Below are positions 412-7,843 of a DNA stretch of 8,117 bases, in pieces. The stretch is taken from assembly GCA_011048855.1 (NCBI GenBank), contig DSCZ01000286.1, forward strand, positions 1 through 8,117, read 5' to 3'. Position 1 is the stretch's first letter; every line of letters starts with the position of its first letter. The stretch comes from Desulfobacteraceae bacterium (lineage in GTDB: Bacteria; Desulfobacterota; DSM-4660; Desulfatiglandales; Desulfatiglandaceae). The notes beneath the pieces were generated by a model. The model made no database searches, was not told where the DNA came from, and worked only from the letters and a program-made list of their open reading frames with translations. A program made the position numbers and the translations under genes.

Positions 412-961
412 CCTTTTTTGAGTTCTTGATGAAGAGGCGGATTATCTAGGTCAGGAGAACATTCGCTATTCGTGATTTTCTCTTTCCTGTTTTGACTCTT
501 TTGATGTTATCTTTGCAAAAAGATAGGCGGTCAACGGCAAGTTGATCCTTCCAAAATTCAATGACTTTCCGGAGTTTTCCAAACGGGTCGAGGCATGGCT
601 CAGGTTGAACGCGCCCGTCGCAATTGGAAGAAGGGGGGACGGTGCTGTACAGTATGACAGTGGTGTGATAATTTAGTTATATGCGGCGGACGAGGGTTAC
701 GTTTGAGGGTGACTTCCATCACGGGATGAATTGAATCGTGGTTATGAAGGGCGTCCGATTTTTTAAGGCTATCAATCAAAGCATCTCTTTCTGGAATTGC
801 TTCTCCCTACGGTATTTCTAGGTTTTCCCACTTTCAGGTTAAGCGGCTGCATTTTGTGCCTTGAAGGTAAATTGATTGGGGCAGATCTTTCCGGATCGGT
901 TCATTCACGGAAAAAGAGAGCAATTACTGATTAAGAGATAAATTGCTTCGACATTGTTGTT
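412..961. other. Gene-poor stretch with possible decayed sequence
   Basis: I see no intact gene with a credible start and ribosome binding site in these ~550 bases. One open stretch at 527-676 reads like protein and is listed separately. A weak stem (AGCAATT at 919-925 with AATTGCT at 941-947) lies near the right side. The region looks like intergenic debris between the broken TPR gene and the restriction-like island. Confidence 0.5.
527..676 (+). pseudogene. Possible fragment of an unidentified gene
   Basis: From the stop at 524-526 to the TAG at 674-676 one frame stays open for 49 codons. Its composition is protein-like: NGKLILPKFNDFPEF, then an amphipathic stretch with VEAWLRLNAPVA, then GRRGDGAVQYDSG. 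There is no ATG, and the TTG at 542 lacks a ribosome binding site. It may be the 3' end of a lost gene or chance. I do not recognise the family. Confidence 0.28.
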
Positions 962-985
962 ACTTATAGTCTGTAGACTTATCGC
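962..985 (+). promoter_or_regulatory. C-box operator of the controller protein
   Basis: Two half-operators follow one another: ACTTATAGTC at 962-971 and GACTTATCGC at 976-985, separated by TGTA. This closely matches the C-box of restriction-modification controller proteins, whose known operators (for example Esp1396I and PvuII type) contain repeated GACTTATAGTC-like boxes with a short GTG-containing spacer. In those systems a C-protein dimer on the left box activates, and a second dimer on the right box represses. The position, ending 23 bp before the start codon of a C-like gene, supports the same autoregulation here. Confidence 0.8.
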
Positions 986-992
986 ATGCGCA

Positions 993-1008
993 ACCCGAAT
1001 ATTCGGGT
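993..1008. promoter_or_regulatory. 16-bp perfect palindrome abutting the start codon
   Basis: ACCCGAATATTCGGGT is a perfect inverted repeat ending one base before the ATG at 1009. Its AATATT centre is placed to serve as a -10 element (998-1003), which would put transcription start at or next to the ATG. It could also be a second operator, or a stem limiting translation if the transcript begins upstream. No Shine-Dalgarno sequence is present. Confidence 0.5.
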
Positions 1009-1227
1009 ATGGAAATCAAGCGCCGTTTCGGCAATCGAATACGTGAATTAAGGCTTCAAAAATCGCTTTCTCAAGAAAAACTGGCTTTTCTATCCGGGTT
1101 GCACCGGACCTACATCAGCGATGTGGAGATCGGTAAACGAAACATCTCACTTGAAAACATCTCCCGTCTTGCTTGTGCCTTGGGTATCTCCCTAACCGAG
1201 CTTTTTTCATTCAATGATCCCGCCTGA
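1009..1227 (+). CDS. XRE-family controller (C) protein of a restriction-type system
   Basis: This 72-residue protein is a single helix-turn-helix domain of Cro/C1 type. The segments LSQEKLAFLSGLHRTYISDVE (residues ~20-40) and ISLENISRLACALGIS (~46-61) are those of C proteins from type II restriction-modification systems, and the length is typical of them. It should bind DNA as a dimer at the C-box at 962-985, first activating and then limiting its own gene and the endonuclease behind it. The ATG at 1009 is the only sensible start: no upstream start exists in frame and the family N-terminus (RFGNRIRELR) follows at once. With no ribosome binding site, a leaderless mRNA is likely, as known for several C genes. 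The HNH gene begins 2 bp after its stop. Role in delaying nuclease expression is inferred from operator and order. Confidence 0.88.
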   Translation: MEIKRRFGNRIRELRLQKSLSQEKLAFLSGLHRTYISDVEIGKRNISLENISRLACALGISLTELFSFNDPA

Positions 1228-1229
1228 TC

Positions 1230-2261
1230 ATGCTTCAATTTCAGGTCAACGATCCCACTCTGGAATCCCAATGGCGCGCCATCATATTATTCGGTAAAAA
1301 CTCAGCCACTTACAAGTTCGCCTTTGCGCAGGCGTTGATTGAATTCACTCAGCAAAAAAAGACTGAGGTCACGCTTGCCGAGCTTTCAGAACCTTTTTCC
1401 CGGCATATATGTAACCACCTTAAAAAGAGTGACCGTCAGGGAACGGCTGAACGCAGCAGATTCCTGGATACCTGCCGCAAATTCAACCAGGGCGAAATTT
1501 CCAAAGACAGGCTGCTGAAAGTAACCCAAAGCCTGGGTTTTGTGAACGTGGTGGATGCTTTCCAGGTCGTCAACCGCGATATGATCCCCAACCCTTTCTA
1601 TGAGAAGAATTACCAGGAAGGCGATAAACGCATCATTATTCGTGACGAGCTGTTTAAACTGGCGGAAGGCTTCCAGTTTACCAATCTATCCGGCGAGGCG
1701 GACGCTCGTTGGGACCTGGTGGAGACTGCCTGGAATTTAGACATCAACCCGCGGTTGCTGGAGGTTCAGTTTGATGAAACCCGCAACGAGTTTTTTATTG
1801 AGGAAAACTTTCTAAATCGCAGAGTAAATGTCACTTCCGCCCGCGAGTCATTAAACGGGTACCAGAAGGGCAAATGCTTTTATTGTTACAAGAATATTTC
1901 CATTGTTTCCGGCGATGCTAAGGCCTGTGAGGTGGACCATTTCCTGCCCCATTCGCATGTGCAGAAACATCTTCCTGCAAACATCAATGGTGTATGGAAC
2001 CTGGTGCTGGCCTGCCGGGAATGCAACTGCTTATCTGGAAAAGGTGCGCGGACTCCGGATTTAGATTATTTAGACGCACTCTTTCAGCGCAATGAATTCT
2101 ACATCGATAGCAAGCACCCATTGGCTGAAACCATCGTGAACCAAACTGGACAGAGTAGGGAAAAACGCATGCATTTCCTACAGCGCCATTACAATATCTC
2201 TGTAAACTGCAGTATTCACAAATGGAAGCCGGAATTCCTTTTCTCTACGCGGCCGTTTTAG
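1230..2261 (+). CDS. HNH endonuclease, probable restriction nuclease
   Basis: The 343-residue protein has an uncharacterised N-terminal part (~1-205) containing an ILFGKNSATYKFAFAQAL segment, and a C-terminal HNH nuclease domain (~210-275). Visible motif residues are the zinc pair CFYC (216-219), EVDHF with the catalytic-type D236-H237, NLVLAC with N257, and the second zinc pair C262/C265. It should cut DNA by the beta-beta-alpha-metal mechanism; the N-terminal part may provide target recognition. It starts 2 bp after the controller gene with no ribosome binding site of its own, so translation is probably coupled to it. The 3' end overlaps the opposing methyltransferase gene by 17 bp. By position it is the R gene of a C-R pair. 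Target sequence and dependence on DNA modification cannot be told from sequence. Other HNH roles, such as homing, are less likely given the C-box control. Confidence 0.85.
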   Translation: MLQFQVNDPTLESQWRAIILFGKNSATYKFAFAQALIEFTQQKKTEVTLAELSEPFSRHICNHLKKSDRQGTAERSRFLDTCRKFNQGEISKDRLLKVTQSLGFVNVVDAFQVVNRDMIPNPFYEKNYQEGDKRIIIRDELFKLAEGFQFTNLSGEADARWDLVETAWNLDINPRLLEVQFDETRNEFFIEENFLNRRVNVTSARESLNGYQKGKCFYCYKNISIVSGDAKACEVDHFLPHSHVQKHLPANINGVWNLVLACRECNCLSGKGARTPDLDYLDALFQRNEFYIDSKHPLAETIVNQTGQSREKRMHFLQRHYNISVNCSIHKWKPEFLFSTRPF

Positions 2262-2865
2262 TCAAGTAGATAGTGACCCATTGAATTCCTTGCCTGGACA
2301 TGGCATCCGCGTTTTCCCACAACTGGCTCACAATAAACCCTTTCTGCGTTAGCTGGTCGATATAGGTTTGCCGCATGCGCAAAACCATCAGGCGTCCCTG
2401 GGCATCCCGTTTTTCATCCTTCATGTCTGGACGGCTCTCCGGAATTGAAATCAATAGTTTCCCGGCTGGCTTCAGTAGGTTGGCAATTGCGGTCAAGGAT
2501 GCGCTCAGTTCGTCATCGTCAATATGCATCAAGACCGCAGAGCACAGAACGCCGTCAAAGGAACCGTCCGCAAATCGATGCAGGCCGTCCGGTAGATGGC
2601 CGGCGAAGACTCGCTTTTTTAATTCACTGAATCTTTCCCGAGCTAGGTTGATAAATTGTGGACAAGGATCCACGCCCACAGCATCTATTCCCTGGTTCAG
2701 CAAACGGACCAGATCGCGCCCTGAACCAAAGCCGATTTCCAGGACGTGCTCGTCTTTCTCGAATACTTCATGGAAATATCTGGATACCCCGCCTTCAACC
2801 TCAATGTAGCGGTAAAAGGCGCTCTCTGCATAATGGTAATAATAATTAAAAGTTTCTTTGTCCAT
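2245..2865 (-). CDS. Class I SAM-dependent methyltransferase, substrate unknown
   Basis: A 206-residue Rossmann-fold methyltransferase. Motif I is VLEIGFGSGRD (41-51), the acidic residue that binds the SAM ribose is in GVDPCP (D66), the post-motif strand is FDGVLCSAVLMH (103-114), and LLKPAGKLLISIPE (130-143) is the motif typical of Methyltransf_11/25-like enzymes. There is no (D/N/S)PP(Y/F/W) catalytic motif and no cytosine-C5 PCQ/ENV motifs, so it is not an ordinary DNA methyltransferase. The ATG at 2865 is chosen because the conserved start (MDKETFNYY) begins there; a TTG five codons upstream would extend it. It converges on the HNH nuclease gene with a 17-bp overlap and has its own promoter, which would let it be made independently of the C protein. 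It may act as the protective or modifying partner of the nuclease, or modify another molecule. Confidence 0.82.
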   Translation of the reverse strand: MDKETFNYYYHYAESAFYRYIEVEGGVSRYFHEVFEKDEHVLEIGFGSGRDLVRLLNQGIDAVGVDPCPQFINLARERFSELKKRVFAGHLPDGLHRFADGSFDGVLCSAVLMHIDDDELSASLTAIANLLKPAGKLLISIPESRPDMKDEKRDAQGRLMVLRMRQTYIDQLTQKGFIVSQLWENADAMSRQGIQWVTIYLTKTAA

Positions 2866-2885
2866 TTTCGATTCGACCAAGTAAC

Positions 2886-2913
2886 ATTTTATCAGTTCTT
2901 GACAATTTCACAA
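2886..2913 (-). promoter_or_regulatory. Candidate sigma70 promoter of the methyltransferase
   Basis: On the minus strand TTGTGA (2913-2908) and TAAAAT (2891-2886) are 16 bp apart. Start of transcription would fall around 2878-2880, leaving a leader of about 15 nt before the ATG at 2865, with no clear Shine-Dalgarno sequence. This is a pattern match only. Confidence 0.5.
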
Positions 2914-2915
2914 TT

Positions 2916-3074
2916 CTAGGAAGGCTCATATTGTTGATTTAAGCGCTTGCGTGGAGAATTATAGATGCTGTTGAAAGGGAAGGCCGGGTTAACCTGCCAA
3001 GGGATTTCCTGGATGGACATCTCCGGAAACTTGACCATCGATGGCCTGGGGGCTTTGTACATGCGTGTCCTCAT
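2916..3074 (-). pseudogene. Possible frameshifted 3' part of the gene starting at 3126
   Basis: In another minus-strand frame, ATG 3074 to TAG 2918-2916 encodes 52 residues with a credible protein look: KAPRPSMVKFPEM, SIQEIPWQVNPAFPFNSIY, then a basic end. It has no ribosome binding site, and its frame is closed by a stop at 3092-3090. The simplest reading is that one indel separated it from the well-initiated frame at 3126, giving an original product of about 65-70 residues. It could equally be an unrelated fragment or chance. Confidence 0.3.
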
Positions 3075-3126
3075 GCGTGGCAGATGAAATTATCAAGAAC
3101 CGCCCCACCTTGGTTTTGCGGGCCAT
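2989..3126 (-). CDS. Possible small protein of 45 residues with a strong ribosome binding site
   Basis: An ATG at 3126 on the minus strand is preceded by AAGGAGGAATA, with AGGAGG 8 nt from the start, one of the best ribosome binding sites in the window. The reading frame gives MARKTKVGRFLIIS, then a polar stretch, ending at TAA 2991-2989. I recognise no family. The second half does not look strongly protein-like, whereas the neighbouring frame (2916-3074) does, so a frameshift may have broken a longer gene. If real, it would be expressed away from the 3277 gene, with the palindrome at 3189-3209 upstream. Confidence 0.4.
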   Translation of the reverse strand: MARKTKVGRFLIISSATHEDTHVQSPQAIDGQVSGDVHPGNPLAG

Positions 3127-3188
3127 AACTTATTCCTCCTTATTGTTTGCTCGGCATCAAAGAAGGTTGCTTATGGCCTGCCTCTCAA

Positions 3189-3209
3189 CTTAAGGGCAAT
3201 GCCCTTAAG
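3189..3209. promoter_or_regulatory. 21-bp palindrome between divergent genes, candidate operator
   Basis: CTTAAGGGCA (3189-3198) and TGCCCTTAAG (3200-3209) are perfect inverted 10-bp arms around a single base. It sits 62 bp upstream of the minus-strand ATG at 3126 and 67 bp upstream of the plus-strand ATG at 3277. No T-tract follows on either side, so an operator is more likely than a terminator. The binding protein is unknown. Confidence 0.5.
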
Positions 3210-3276
3210 AACCCAAATACAATTTTCAGAAAGAATGCTACACTACCAAAGAAGGAACAATGAGAGGTAAAAAATC

Positions 3277-3723
3277 ATGAAACAATTCGTCAACATGATA
3301 TTGGTTTTTCTTCTTGGAATCATATCTGGATATGAAATCAGAAAAAGATTATTCACATCACAGATTGTAGCTATGATGGAACCTATGGCTCCATTGGTAT
3401 TAAGAAAGTATTACCCAATCAGAAAGCAAGTAGCAATGAATCACTTCACGAATAGAACGAGACTCGTAGCTATTCAATGTCCTCAATGCAGAAATATTTT
3501 TATTACCAAATTGTTTTGCAAGAAATGTAAAAGAAAAGGATATATTATTGAAAATAAAAAACATGTCACTGAATACGATGTTCCTTCGTGGAAAGGATAC
3601 AAAGTGGCGATTGAAAGCGGACGCTATAAAAACCTTGATATGAAATTCATTGATAGGTTGATGAAAAAAACCATATCAATTTCAGAAGCCGTTAATTCTG
3701 ATGGAGAAGAACAAAATGATTGA
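3277..3723 (+). CDS. Membrane-anchored zinc-ribbon protein of unknown function
   Basis: The 148-residue protein starts with one hydrophobic segment (~5-19, VNMILVFLLGIISGY), followed by a basic turn (RKR) that suggests the rest is cytoplasmic. A zinc ribbon follows: CPQC (68-71) and CKKC (81-84) with a 9-residue loop. The C-terminal ~60 residues are charged and have no recognised domain. A ribosome binding site (GAGAGG) lies 9 nt before the ATG. The gene is strikingly AT-rich next to its neighbours, suggesting transfer. Its end overlaps the next microprotein gene by 8 bp, so the two are probably translated together. I do not recognise the family. A membrane-tethered nucleic-acid or protein-binding role is only a guess from the ribbon. 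Confidence 0.72.
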   Translation: MKQFVNMILVFLLGIISGYEIRKRLFTSQIVAMMEPMAPLVLRKYYPIRKQVAMNHFTNRTRLVAIQCPQCRNIFITKLFCKKCKRKGYIIENKKHVTEYDVPSWKGYKVAIESGRYKNLDMKFIDRLMKKTISISEAVNSDGEEQND

Positions 3724-3995: not shown

Positions 3996-4030
3996 GAAGA
4001 CTGCGGCCAGGTCTTTCATTATGACATTTT
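3996..4030 (+). repeat. REP-like repeat, copy A (solo)
   Basis: GAAGACTGCGGCCAGGTCTT followed by TCATTATGACATTTT matches the three copies at the right end of the window. It stands alone between the microprotein genes and the glycohydrolase gene, in the same orientation as the others, and marks a junction between AT-rich and GC-rich DNA. Confidence 0.7.
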
Positions 4031-4105: not shown

Positions 4106-5062
4106 ATGGCTGTGTCGATTGATAAGGATAGGGGGGTGGTAAGTCGGGCGCGGGGGTGTCTGGTTGGGCAGTTGGCGGGGGACGCGCTGGGCAGCCTGGT
4201 TGAGTTTCAGTCGCCGGAAAAGATCCGCAGCCGGTATCCCGATGGCGTGCGGGAGCTGGCCGACGGCGGGACGTGGAATACTCTTGCGGGCCAGCCTACT
4301 GATGATTCCGAGATGGCGCTGCTGCTGGCACGCATGCTGGTAAAGACAGGAGTCTATGATCCGGAGGCGGCACTAAAGGAATACCAATACTGGTTGCGTT
4401 CGGATCCTTTCGATTGTGGCAACACCATCTACGCGGGGCTGACGGGGAATCCCAATCCCGACAGCCAGGCCAACGGCGCCATGATGCGTATCAGCCCACT
4501 GGGGATTTTCGGGGCCAACTACAAATTAGAGCAGGTGGCGGAATGGGCCATGCGGGACGCGGCGCTGACCCATCTTCACGTGATCTGCCGGCAGGCGAAC
4601 GCGCTGTTTGCCATGGGCATTGCCCATGCTATCTCTTGCGGTTGCGGGGGCAGGGAGCTGTACCGGAGCATCCGGCAGTGGGCAAAGGAGATGCCCGTGG
4701 AATCCGCGTTAATGGCAATCATCGAAAAAGCGGCGGAAGCACCGCCGCAGGACTTTGTCCGCCGGCAGGGCTGGGTGCTGATCGCGTTTCAGAACGCCCT
4801 GTACCAGCTGTTGCATGCTGAAACAATGGAAGCGGGCATTGTTGATACGGTGATGCGCGGCGGCGATACGGATACAAATGCCGCCATCTGCGGGGCCCTG
4901 CTGGGGGCCGTTCACGGCCTGGAGGCCGTTCCGGACCAATGGCTCAATGCCCTGCAAAACTGCCGGCCCCAAGAGGGAACCCCCCGGGTTCATCAACCCC
5001 GACCCCAATGCTTCTGGCCTGTGGATGCCCTGGAGTTGGCGGGAAAGTTGGTAAGAGGGTAG
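4106..5062 (+). CDS. ADP-ribosylglycohydrolase (DraG family)
   Basis: The 318-residue protein has the three hallmark metal-binding motifs of the family: GDALG (25-29), TDDSEMAL (65-72) and GGDTDTN (252-258), with NGAMMR (123-128) and a TH motif (155-156) between them. Such enzymes are all-helical, hold two magnesium or manganese ions with these aspartates and threonines, and remove ADP-ribose from proteins or other targets in the cytoplasm. The ATG at 4106 is preferred over the in-frame ATG at 4037 because GGAG lies 6 nt upstream and the conserved domain starts soon after. The length is normal, and all metal ligands I can identify are present, so it should be active. It ends 12 bp from the end of the opposing TPR gene. 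No ADP-ribosyltransferase is recognisable here, so its substrate is unknown; it may oppose a toxin or defence ADP-ribosylation encoded nearby. Confidence 0.92.
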   Translation: MAVSIDKDRGVVSRARGCLVGQLAGDALGSLVEFQSPEKIRSRYPDGVRELADGGTWNTLAGQPTDDSEMALLLARMLVKTGVYDPEAALKEYQYWLRSDPFDCGNTIYAGLTGNPNPDSQANGAMMRISPLGIFGANYKLEQVAEWAMRDAALTHLHVICRQANALFAMGIAHAISCGCGGRELYRSIRQWAKEMPVESALMAIIEKAAEAPPQDFVRRQGWVLIAFQNALYQLLHAETMEAGIVDTVMRGGDTDTNAAICGALLGAVHGLEAVPDQWLNALQNCRPQEGTPRVHQPRPQCFWPVDALELAGKLVRG

Positions 5063-5687: not shown

Positions 5688-6704
5688 CTATTCAATGGGG
5701 TGGTGTTTCCGGCGCTTTCCGCGCCTGCCGTGGGTAATGGTGATGATGGGGTCGGATTTGACGGGGGAAAAGTCCGGCGGGGGCGGGTCGCCTTTTTCAT
5801 TTGCCTTTTCCAGAATACTCTGCAGCTCGGCCAGTTTCCTTGCGCCGTCGATGGCCTCGGCGCCTTCATTCCGGTAGTCGAACCAGGGACCGTCCATGTC
5901 GTTGTATTCCCGGGCGGCCAGGGGGACTGTGGGCGGATTGTTTCCGGTGATGGCCCGCCACAGCATGGCATCGGTCAGGTGGGCGAAGACGCGCAACCCG
6001 GCCTTGATGTCCCAGTCGCTTTTCTGGAAGGGGTCTTCGAAGATCTCCTGGCGCATGCGTCCGCCCGGGGCCATGCCCATGCCCATGCTCGCGTCGCATG
6101 AGGAGTAAAAGTATTGCGTGAGGCGATCTTTCTGCTCTGAAAGGCGCGTTTCGAATACATCCCGGCGCATGGGAAAGACCATGATCTGCAGGCCGCCGAA
6201 CTCGGCTTTACCGGTGAGCTGCTCCTCGGCGCTGTAGCCTTCGCCCAGGGGCATGGCCACGAACTGGCGAATGATTCCCTTTTCCACGCAGTAGCCGTCC
6301 AGCCACGGCTGTTCGGGTACGACCAGGTAGTCCTGGGGGCGGCGGTGCAACTTTTCCGACCAGGGCTTGCCGCTGAGGGCGCAGATCTTGCCCGTCGCCA
6401 GCTTGATTGCAAAGGGGTATGGGGTATCGCGGCTGGGGATATATTCTCCATCAAAGTTCAGCCACAGGGCCTCGGCGCGGTACATGGGCAGCATGACGCC
6501 GCCGCGCATTCTCCAGGCCGGCGGCAGGCGCTTGGAAAAGTCGTCCACGTGGCGCAGGGGGAAACGACCCAAACCCGGGGGCAGGGGATACTCTTTGCCG
6601 TCATCGGGGATGCGCAGGGTGCGCTGAAAGTTGATGGAAAGAACGGCGTTGGGGTGATGGTCGGGGAAGCGAAACACCAGGGAGTCGTCGCGTAATTCAA
6701 TCAT
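5688..6704 (-). CDS. Conserved protein of unknown function (338 residues)
   Basis: The long, well-formed frame has dense blocks typical of a conserved enzyme-like protein: FQRTLRIPDDGKEYPLPPGL (27-46), RGGVMLPMYRAEALWLNF (68-84), YPFAIKLATGKI, PQDYLVVPEQPWLDGYCVEKG, IIRQFVAMPLGEGYSAEEQL, GLQIMVFPMRR and APGGRMRQEIFEDP (212-225). From memory similar uncharacterised proteins occur in several bacterial phyla, with no function assigned; I name no domain. The last ~60 residues are different in style: a helical stretch (279-304), PPPP, and a basic tail (RRGKRRKHH), probably variable. ATG 6704 is chosen over 6725 because AAGGAG lies 7-8 nt upstream and the upstream start overlaps the regulator's stop. 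It lies 14 bp behind the XRE regulator and before the TPR gene, so all three are probably one transcript. No signal peptide or membrane segment is seen. Confidence 0.82.
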   Translation of the reverse strand: MIELRDDSLVFRFPDHHPNAVLSINFQRTLRIPDDGKEYPLPPGLGRFPLRHVDDFSKRLPPAWRMRGGVMLPMYRAEALWLNFDGEYIPSRDTPYPFAIKLATGKICALSGKPWSEKLHRRPQDYLVVPEQPWLDGYCVEKGIIRQFVAMPLGEGYSAEEQLTGKAEFGGLQIMVFPMRRDVFETRLSEQKDRLTQYFYSSCDASMGMGMAPGGRMRQEIFEDPFQKSDWDIKAGLRVFAHLTDAMLWRAITGNNPPTVPLAAREYNDMDGPWFDYRNEGAEAIDGARKLAELQSILEKANEKGDPPPPDFSPVKSDPIITITHGRRGKRRKHHPIE

Positions 6705-6718
6705 ATTGGTTCTCCTTT

Positions 6719-7078
6719 TTACCATTTGCCGTCGCGGACCTCCCGGGCAATACGCAGCACCGCGTGGTCGGGTATCTCTTTGAGCTCGCGGATGAGGTGG
6801 GCGAACAATTCCGGGCGCTTGCGGATGATCTCCTGAACATCCCTGGAGACTTTTCCGCTCAGGGCCAGCAGCACGTCTGGGTCTTCACCCAGCTCCGCGG
6901 CCAGCAGGCGGATCTTTGCTTCCGTGAGGTAGACCTTGTGGTCGCCGCGTTCGATCTTGCTCAGGTATGAGGGCTCCACGCCGATGCGCGCGGCTACCTG
7001 GCGCAGGGAAAAATCGCGGTTCGCTTTGCGGAGTTTTTCCCGCTGTTTTCGCACGAAGGATCCGAAGGTGGTTGTCAT
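6719..7078 (-). CDS. XRE-family transcriptional regulator, operon autoregulator
   Basis: The 119-residue protein has an N-terminal Cro/C1-type helix-turn-helix: FSLRQVAARIGVEPSYLSKI (23-42) with ERG after it, then LLAAELGEDPDVLLALSGKV. The C-terminal part (~80-119: QEIIRKRPELFAHLIRELK, then PDHAVLRIAREVRDGKW) is conserved in a common family of small regulators that head operons. ATG 7078 is chosen because an upstream start (7114) would place the coding sequence across the promoter, whose -35 box ends at 7114. There is no ribosome binding site and the predicted transcript starts at the ATG, so it should be leaderless. A palindrome across the -10 box (7081-7102) suggests that it represses its own operon with the 338-residue protein and the TPR protein. 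Confidence 0.88.
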   Translation of the reverse strand: MTTTFGSFVRKQREKLRKANRDFSLRQVAARIGVEPSYLSKIERGDHKVYLTEAKIRLLAAELGEDPDVLLALSGKVSRDVQEIIRKRPELFAHLIRELKEIPDHAVLRIAREVRDGKW

Positions 7079-7080
7079 AG

Positions 7081-7102
7081 TATGTAGTATATAGTACACA
7101 TA
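7081..7102. promoter_or_regulatory. Candidate operator overlapping the XRE promoter
   Basis: The inverted repeat TATGT-N4-TATA-N4-ACATA spans 22 bp, perfectly symmetric in its outer and central blocks, and covers the -10 box and part of the spacer. XRE regulators bind such sites as dimers, so binding here would block RNA polymerase. Identity of the binder as the adjacent gene product is inferred. Confidence 0.55.
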
Positions 7103-7114
7103 AAGATTTGTCAA
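7086..7114 (-). promoter_or_regulatory. Near-consensus sigma70 promoter of the XRE operon
   Basis: On the minus strand TTGACA (7114-7109) and TATACT (7091-7086) are exactly 17 bp apart. The -35 box is perfect and the -10 box differs from consensus at one base. Only 7 nt separate the -10 box from ATG 7078, so transcription should begin at or next to the start codon. Confidence 0.82.
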
Positions 7115-7123
7115 CTAAGAAAA

Positions 7124-7157
7124 AAGACTGGGGCCAGGTCGTGCATTATTGCATTTT
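7124..7157 (+). repeat. REP-like repeat, copy B
   Basis: AAGACTGGGGCCAGGTCGTG followed by CATTATTGCATTTT. It lies just upstream of the decayed transposase, the usual place for a repeat belonging to a REP-associated transposase. Confidence 0.75.
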
Positions 7158-7748: not shown

Positions 7749-7783
7749 GAAGACTGGCGCCAGATCTTGCATTATTACAATTT
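7749..7783 (+). repeat. REP-like repeat, copy C
   Basis: GAAGACTGGCGCCAGATCTT followed by GCATTATTACAATTT. It contains the perfect palindrome TGGCGCCA (7755-7762), while the other copies have GGGGCCA or CGGCCA there. Confidence 0.75.
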
Positions 7784-7808: not shown

Positions 7809-7843
7809 GAAGGCCGGGGCCAGGTCTTAAATTAATACATTTT
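7809..7843 (+). repeat. REP-like repeat, copy D
   Basis: GAAGGCCGGGGCCAGGTCTT followed by AAATTAATACATTTT. It is 60 bp from copy C in the same orientation and is preceded by a run of seven G residues. Confidence 0.72.

Follow-up and report, generated by a model that had tools for sequence, protein, structure and literature searches.

An HNH nuclease under C-box control and its exchangeable partner enzymes: a candidate restriction-like unit in a Desulfobacteraceae contig

What does a methyltransferase without the hallmarks of a DNA methyltransferase do beside a nuclease that is regulated like a restriction enzyme? The question is raised by a contig of a Desulfobacteraceae bacterium (GCA_011048855.1, DSCZ01000286.1; 8,117 nucleotides, the whole of which we analysed and call the window), where a gene for a controller (C) protein is followed by a gene for an HNH nuclease and faced by a gene for a small methyltransferase. 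The initial annotation took the methyltransferase to be the key to the system. The nuclease, the C control and the pairing held up in our analysis; the methyltransferase turned out to be one of several exchangeable partners of a nuclease family whose commonest partner is a HIT protein.

The layout, with a C-box, a C gene, an HNH gene 2 nt behind it and a facing methyltransferase gene with overlapping ends, had been read from the sequence and was confirmed by gene calls, family matches and the conserved offset of the box. The C gene (1009–1227, + strand) encodes a 72-aa XRE/HTH_3 protein that belongs to the controller family (PADLOC Control_protein, E 7.9e-28), its nearest relatives of solved structure being C.BclI (2e-18) and C.AhdI (2.3e-17). 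The nuclease gene (1230–2261, + strand; 343 aa) starts 2 nt past the stop codon of the C gene, and the gene of a class I S-adenosylmethionine (SAM) methyltransferase of the Methyltransf_25/11 type (2245–2865, − strand; 206 aa from its ATG) converges on it, the ends at 2245 and 2261 sharing 17 bp. The gene caller had started the methyltransferase at a TTG at 2880; its relatives start at the position of the ATG at 2865. At −48 from the C start lies a C-box of the C.PvuII type (961–986, + strand) with the operators TACTtatAGTC and GACTtatCGCA and the spacer TGTA; the available part of PMC4824078 gives this type as GACT-tat-AGTC with a GT-centred spacer. The box has four mismatches against two GACT-N3-AGTC operators and does not match a stricter pattern allowing at most three, and when the 130 bp upstream were shuffled 500 times, 11 versions contained an equally good one, which alone makes it only moderately unlikely to be a chance match. 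What makes it convincing is that the best box kept the offset of −48 in six of the eight C-bearing loci examined. The match at this offset was strong in L013, L072 and L067 (equalled by 0, 1 and 1 of 500 shuffles) and weak in L030 and L064 (by 170 and 407). For L070 and L074 the best matches lay at another offset and were chance-like (443 and 444).

(D/N/S)PP(F/Y/W) and PCQ are motifs of DNA methyltransferases, and neither was present when the 206 residues of the window's methyltransferase were read, nor was a target-recognition domain. A cognate DNA methyltransferase with (D/N/S)PP(Y/F) or PCQ, as in C-controlled type II restriction-modification (R-M) systems, was thus not found here; the first motif is named in the part of PMC10853773 at hand. 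The best families were Methyltransf_25 and Methyltransf_11 (E 6e-16 and 7.9e-16), and the predicted structure of the protein (206 aa; predicted local distance difference test, pLDDT, 95.5) resembled small-molecule methyltransferases, METTL6 and several unnamed structures, with no DNA methyltransferase by name among the 50 fold matches listed. Motifs, families and modelled fold therefore bear out the earlier description of a Methyltransf_11/25-like enzyme lacking the DNA-methyltransferase motifs, and the partner probably has a mode of action other than that of classical DNA methyltransferases. A plain DNA methyltransferase was considered and rated lower on motifs and fold.

The nuclease and its partner very probably form a functional unit. 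The arrangement of C-box, C gene, nuclease gene and facing methyltransferase gene recurs in an Aminicenantes contig (L013), the facing layout being found in the window and L013 only. Among 297 genomes of the phylum of L013, four hold a close relative of the methyltransferase (E 1e-40): that of L013 itself and three proteins in which it is fused to an HNH domain. In these fusions (L141, L142 and L143), the methyltransferase makes up the N-terminal part of a protein of 555–642 aa with an HNH_4 domain. Five close relatives had visible neighbourhoods, of which three were HNH-fused, one faced an HNH gene and one was without HNH; the resulting linkage of 4/5 refers to these five, a further 29 stand-alone proteins falling outside the count. 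Searches of further genomes with the methyltransferase gave 0/299 and 1/142, the one being already known, which leaves a single phylum as the basis of the whole-genome linkage. With one of the fusions as query, 1,211 relatives were found at E 1e-3 among the 7,996 candidates scored, a count that gives the size of the fusion family and not the frequency of the stand-alone methyltransferase. As the layout recurs and a large family joins both domains in one protein, the link is stronger than adjacency. A metabolic methyltransferase could still have come by chance to lie beside an ordinary restriction nuclease, as the breadth of its families, the close relative without HNH (L196) and the 29 stand-alone proteins might suggest; we consider this very improbable in view of the recurrent layout, the fusion and the 4/5 linkage. 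The pairing was to be doubted, according to the initial annotation, if the methyltransferase occurred mainly without an HNH partner: the four HNH-tied close relatives speak against such a distribution, and the Burkholderia relative without HNH, together with distant relatives in other settings, speaks for it.

Among the best 120 of the 1,211 fusion relatives, 111 carried both domains and five also a Peptidase_S24 domain, as read from the match table. When 107 fusions were used, their HNH part matched the family of the window's nuclease along almost its full length, with 299 aligned columns, a probability of 94.4 and, for one pair, E 1.8e-8; with three fusions the match was limited to the HNH core. 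A family scan of four fused proteins gave generic methyltransferase families and HNH_4, with Peptidase_S24 in one. The five proteins with a LexA-type Peptidase_S24 (P0226, P0229, P0250, P0256 and P0263; 746–764 aa), one of them confirmed by the family scan, raise the question of whether they are a signal-cleaved version of the module, which is possible. The methyltransferase also matched 40 viral loci, mostly distant, and in two of these (L106 and L121) it adjoins the nuclease. On the viral contig of L106 (7989–9579), the methyltransferase gene is followed on the same strand by an overlapping gene of the nuclease family, in the order of the fusion.

A methyltransferase and a nuclease in one chain are reminiscent of type IIG enzymes, and together with a gene order like that of a C-controlled R-M system they suggest that the small-molecule-like methyltransferase might nevertheless methylate DNA, or an existing DNA mark such as sulfur, as a new type II/IIG modification enzyme. 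In type IIG enzymes the methyltransferase is a DNA adenine methyltransferase, accompanied by a target-recognition domain. This combination was not found in the four scanned fusions, in which no DNA methyltransferase family appeared, and the fused relatives have their small-molecule-like methyltransferase placed first. The missing motifs and target-recognition domain of the window's enzyme, its predicted fold neighbours, which are small-molecule, tRNA or unnamed enzymes, and the partners of related nucleases argue further against an unusual DNA modification, which we regard as unlikely.

We counted genes within 1 kb of the nuclease in 100 rows which, after removal of two duplicates, represent 98 distinct loci. 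A HIT protein, which is no methyltransferase, holds the partner's place in 69/98 loci, always downstream and on the same strand. Small methyltransferases are the partner in 17/98 (14 downstream on the same strand, two facing and one upstream), a methyltransferase–HIT fusion in two (L067 and L072) and a MazG-like protein in three, and 91/98 loci have a partner of one of these kinds. That the partners are exchangeable and mostly HIT makes plain DNA methylation a less likely reading. In the nuclease tree, the window and L013 form one clade (support 100/89), placed beside HIT-paired rows from Bacteroidota (98/74, not fully supported). The tree contains 11 partner changes in all, and for the methyltransferase label at least three are forced by well-supported branches. 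The methyltransferases themselves fall into three separate lineages, the co-directional (14), the HIT-linked (3) and the window type, with the window and L013 among fused and stand-alone relatives (99/92).

Several of these loci show further arrangements. In L070 the HIT gene adjoins a separate methyltransferase gene, whose kind is joined to HIT as one protein in L067 and L072. The MazG/PRA-PH-like genes lie beside nucleases of Bacillota without HIT or methyltransferase (L081, 7559–7888; L087, 7556–7888; L146, 9589–9912), the protein of L146 itself having no Pfam match at 1e-3. An array in L021 (6723–10016), with kin in Sphingobacterium, reads SRA-HNH, NUDIX, HNH, a 193-aa protein and HIT; only 2 nt separate the end of its NUDIX gene from the HNH gene, and the NUDIX kin in L032 matches PADLOC PDC-S07. 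HNH_2 proteins that look alike by eye are encoded near the HIT-paired nuclease of L145 (3350–4252, − strand) and beside the fusion of L150 (4945–5898, + strand).

The nuclease matches HNH_4 (E 9.4e-6) and has 2,961 relatives at E 1e-3. Its HNH core (residues 216–276; 1875–2057, + strand) is of the Cys4 type and resembles Cas9 HNH chains by profile (E 2e-4); D236, H237, N257 and K271 are invariant across 61 aligned rows, and the catalytic residues appear from the sequence to be intact. The Cys4 type is kept in 17/17 methyltransferase-paired and 3/3 MazG-paired nucleases, against 2/71 HIT-paired rows, 0/2 paired with the methyltransferase–HIT fusion and 2/7 unpaired. Scans of genome and viral contigs with a single sequence gave no matches, and only an alignment query did; phage records gave none. 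In a search of E. coli with the DNA of L086, no site covered 80% of the query, and the 20 matches listed correspond to a 60-base transposase end. The N-terminal domain (residues 9–168; 1254–1733, + strand) is predicted to be winged-helix-like, with a fold similar to sulfur-binding domains and to origin recognition complex (ORC) winged helices.

This predicted fold brings in the rival that we grade as strong, namely that the enzyme is a modification-dependent, type IV-like nuclease whose N-terminal domain senses modified, perhaps phosphorothioate, foreign DNA, the partners cleaning up or masking odd nucleotides and protection of the host not being the main point. It has in its favour that distant relatives of the methyltransferase adjoin SspA–SspB genes. 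The methyltransferase weakly matched 75 plasmid records, and we examined four neighbourhoods among the 20 matches listed. In three of them, from plasmids of Ensifer (L197), Sphingopyxis (L198) and Devosia (L199), distant methyltransferases of ~29–30% identity are divergent from genes for a cysteine desulfurase (SspA-type) and DUF4007 (SspB), the two being named SspA and SspB by PADLOC on the Sphingopyxis plasmid. It is possible, and we pose it as a question, that these phosphorothioation loci contain a methyltransferase without an assigned role. Another methyltransferase locus, L091, has a PAPS-reductase-type gene 2.5 kb away. The SBD-HNH and SBD-SRA-HNH type IV enzymes with a sulfur-binding domain (SBD), such as ScoMcrA, SprMcrA and EcoWI, have a winged-helix-like N-terminal domain and a C-terminal HNH in common with the window's nuclease, as far as the portion of PMC7461809 at hand describes them; the nuclease differs in having a fixed enzyme partner and C control, and no sequence match to them was found. 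Profile comparisons of the nuclease with sulfur-binding domains, with two reference proteins each time, gave no match. NF045808 was found in 22/150 genomes at E 1e-10 and in 0/150 over its own cut-off, and as nearly all the matches sit in its HNH half, no clean sulfur-binding-domain family could be built. DndC was present in 1/50 and DUF4007/SspB in 0/50 nuclease-bearing genomes; with low base rates and no control matched in the DUF4007 search, this rarity fits a phosphorothioate variant but proves little. The sole DndC-bearing genome, of Aliterella atlantica (L084), has a nuclease without a HIT, methyltransferase or MazG partner. Weighing these points, we regard the type IV-like reading as somewhat doubtful.

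Restriction-type genes are found around nucleases of this family. Six restriction-type seeds were present in 19/48 nuclease flanks and in 0/28 control stretches, each taken from a different one of 28 nuclease-bearing genomes (p 5e-5), and in 15/44 flanks without the seed donors (p 2e-4); the seeds had been picked from nuclease loci after clustering, so the test favours enrichment. The neighbours include in L001 a SauUSI-like type IV enzyme (PADLOC mREase_IV) and in L021 the SRA-HNH enzyme.

HIT and PRA-PH/MazG families act on nucleotides, and as a nucleotide-type substrate would cover all the partners, we tentatively favour a restriction-like defence module in which the nuclease is accompanied by a guard enzyme whose substrate is a nucleotide-type molecule, the C protein delaying the nuclease. 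The N-terminal domain would read DNA and the Cas9-like HNH core would cut it. The guard, here the small SAM methyltransferase, in most relatives the HIT hydrolase and in a few a MazG-like pyrophosphohydrolase, would make the cell safe without marking DNA target sites, by acting on a small molecule of nucleotide type. This might be a modified nucleotide, prevented in this way from being built into host DNA, or a nucleotide signal by which the nuclease is armed. On entry to a new cell, the C protein and C-box would restrain the nuclease to give the guard, which would be transcribed from its own side, time to act. That the nuclease would harm a cell lacking the partner is our inference from the C control, by analogy with restriction-modification, and the partner would then be protective, acting on a nucleotide rather than on DNA or protein. 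The nucleotide substrate, taken by itself, is a marginally more tentative proposal than the mechanism. That HIT, MazG-like proteins and three methyltransferase lineages are interchangeable guards which keep a nucleotide-type molecule from the nuclease, with C timing the nuclease after the guard, is possible and somewhat less secure; it would be a new principle of self-protection in restriction, in which the guards destroy or cap a modified nucleotide that the nuclease would attack in host DNA, or turn off its arming signal. Phosphorothioate is the leading candidate for a modified nucleotide, with four hints, none strong alone: the fold, a likeness to TIGR04096, the SspA–SspB neighbours and the desulfuration of nucleotides by a human HIT enzyme (as stated in the available part of PMC8775712).

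A number of points weigh against the guard mechanism. No member of the family has a known activity. Since a methyltransferase does not hydrolyse nucleotides, a substrate common to the partners is a guess, and the exchange of partners could reflect different accessory jobs; the fusion with the nuclease, by analogy, recalls type IIG enzymes, which methylate DNA. Seven of 98 nucleases have no partner within 1 kb, L090 being cut at the contig end, and a C gene precedes the nuclease in only 8/100 rows, so a delay is not general. The choice of restriction seeds, described above, counts here too, as do the long branches of L155, L007 and L145 in the nuclease tree, whose placement is unsure. Of the viral loci found by the methyltransferase, 38/40 show no nuclease in the DNA scanned, and on a Burkholderia plasmid (L196) the closest of the plasmid relatives overlaps an IS3 transposase gene, with no HNH within 5 kb. 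This exception and the Ssp neighbours count slightly against the guard mechanism and somewhat in favour of the type IV-like nuclease. Tight linkage and C control would also suit a toxin–antitoxin-like arrangement, with the methyltransferase or HIT silencing the nuclease, through action on its protein or on RNA, until infection lifts the block, and the LexA-type Peptidase_S24 in five of the best 120 fusions suggests switching by a signal. There is no known binding partner or conserved modification site, and a small substrate in common accounts more readily for partners that are enzymes; we consider this arrangement quite improbable.

The window holds other elements besides the methyltransferase and nuclease genes. 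A perfect 14-bp palindrome, CCCGAATATTCGGG (993–1006), stands between the C-box and the C start; the corresponding 130-bp upstream stretches of the C genes in L013 and L072 lack it. Some 20 nt before the methyltransferase ATG is a promoter-like site, TTGTGA-N16-TAAAAT, with an extended −10 (2886–2913, − strand); it is a match to the consensus only, and 3 such sites were found in 700–3200 against 3.3 expected by chance. An ADP-ribosylglycohydrolase gene (4106–5062, + strand) lies 1.2 kb from the module. In L141 a gene for a protein 52% identical to it (3186–3608, − strand) starts 17 bp from the methyltransferase–HNH fusion, and in L056 that of a distant relative (25%; 1094–1963) is found 2.4 kb from a partnerless nuclease; the enzyme is possibly a further nucleotide-type associate. 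A 28-mer resembling repetitive extragenic palindromes, GGGGCCAGGTCTTGCATTATTACATTTT, is present in four copies with up to three mismatches (4003–4030, 7130–7157, 7756–7783 and 7816–7843) and in none of 200 shuffles. An XRE gene (6719–7114, − strand) overlaps a gene for a 345-aa protein (5688–6725, − strand) that has no match in Pfam, NCBIfam or PADLOC, and the two may be a regulator pair.

Is the unit a known system? The window shares with C-controlled type II R-M systems the C-box at the C gene, the C gene directly before the nuclease and the facing methyltransferase, and it differs in a methyltransferase without DNA-methyltransferase motifs or target-recognition domain and in a nuclease whose relatives have HIT or MazG-like partners. 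Csp231I, too, has R and M genes that converge, with another type of C-box, according to the part of PMC4824078 at hand. PADLOC models for PtuB and Cas9 (HNH), ThsC (HIT), mad2 and PDC-S07 (NUDIX) share HNH, HIT, methyltransferase or NUDIX domains with these loci; they match generic domains only, and none covers the nuclease beyond its HNH core. The pair of nuclease and methyltransferase was not described in PADLOC, NCBIfam or the titles and abstract openings of the literature searched (subscription papers and REBASE lying outside the search), and its novelty is provisional; within these sources, the initial view of a C-controlled, restriction-like unit with a non-DNA-type methyltransferase that is not a named system stands.

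Textbook restriction combines a cut with a mark on DNA. In the unit described here, restriction-type regulation and gene order persist with the marking enzyme exchanged, and the commonest partner in the family is not a methyltransferase at all. If the partner is protective, the family would represent a second way for a cell to be self; if it is not, these loci would belong to a large and little-studied nuclease family with dedicated accessory enzymes, some of them tied to DNA sulfur biology.

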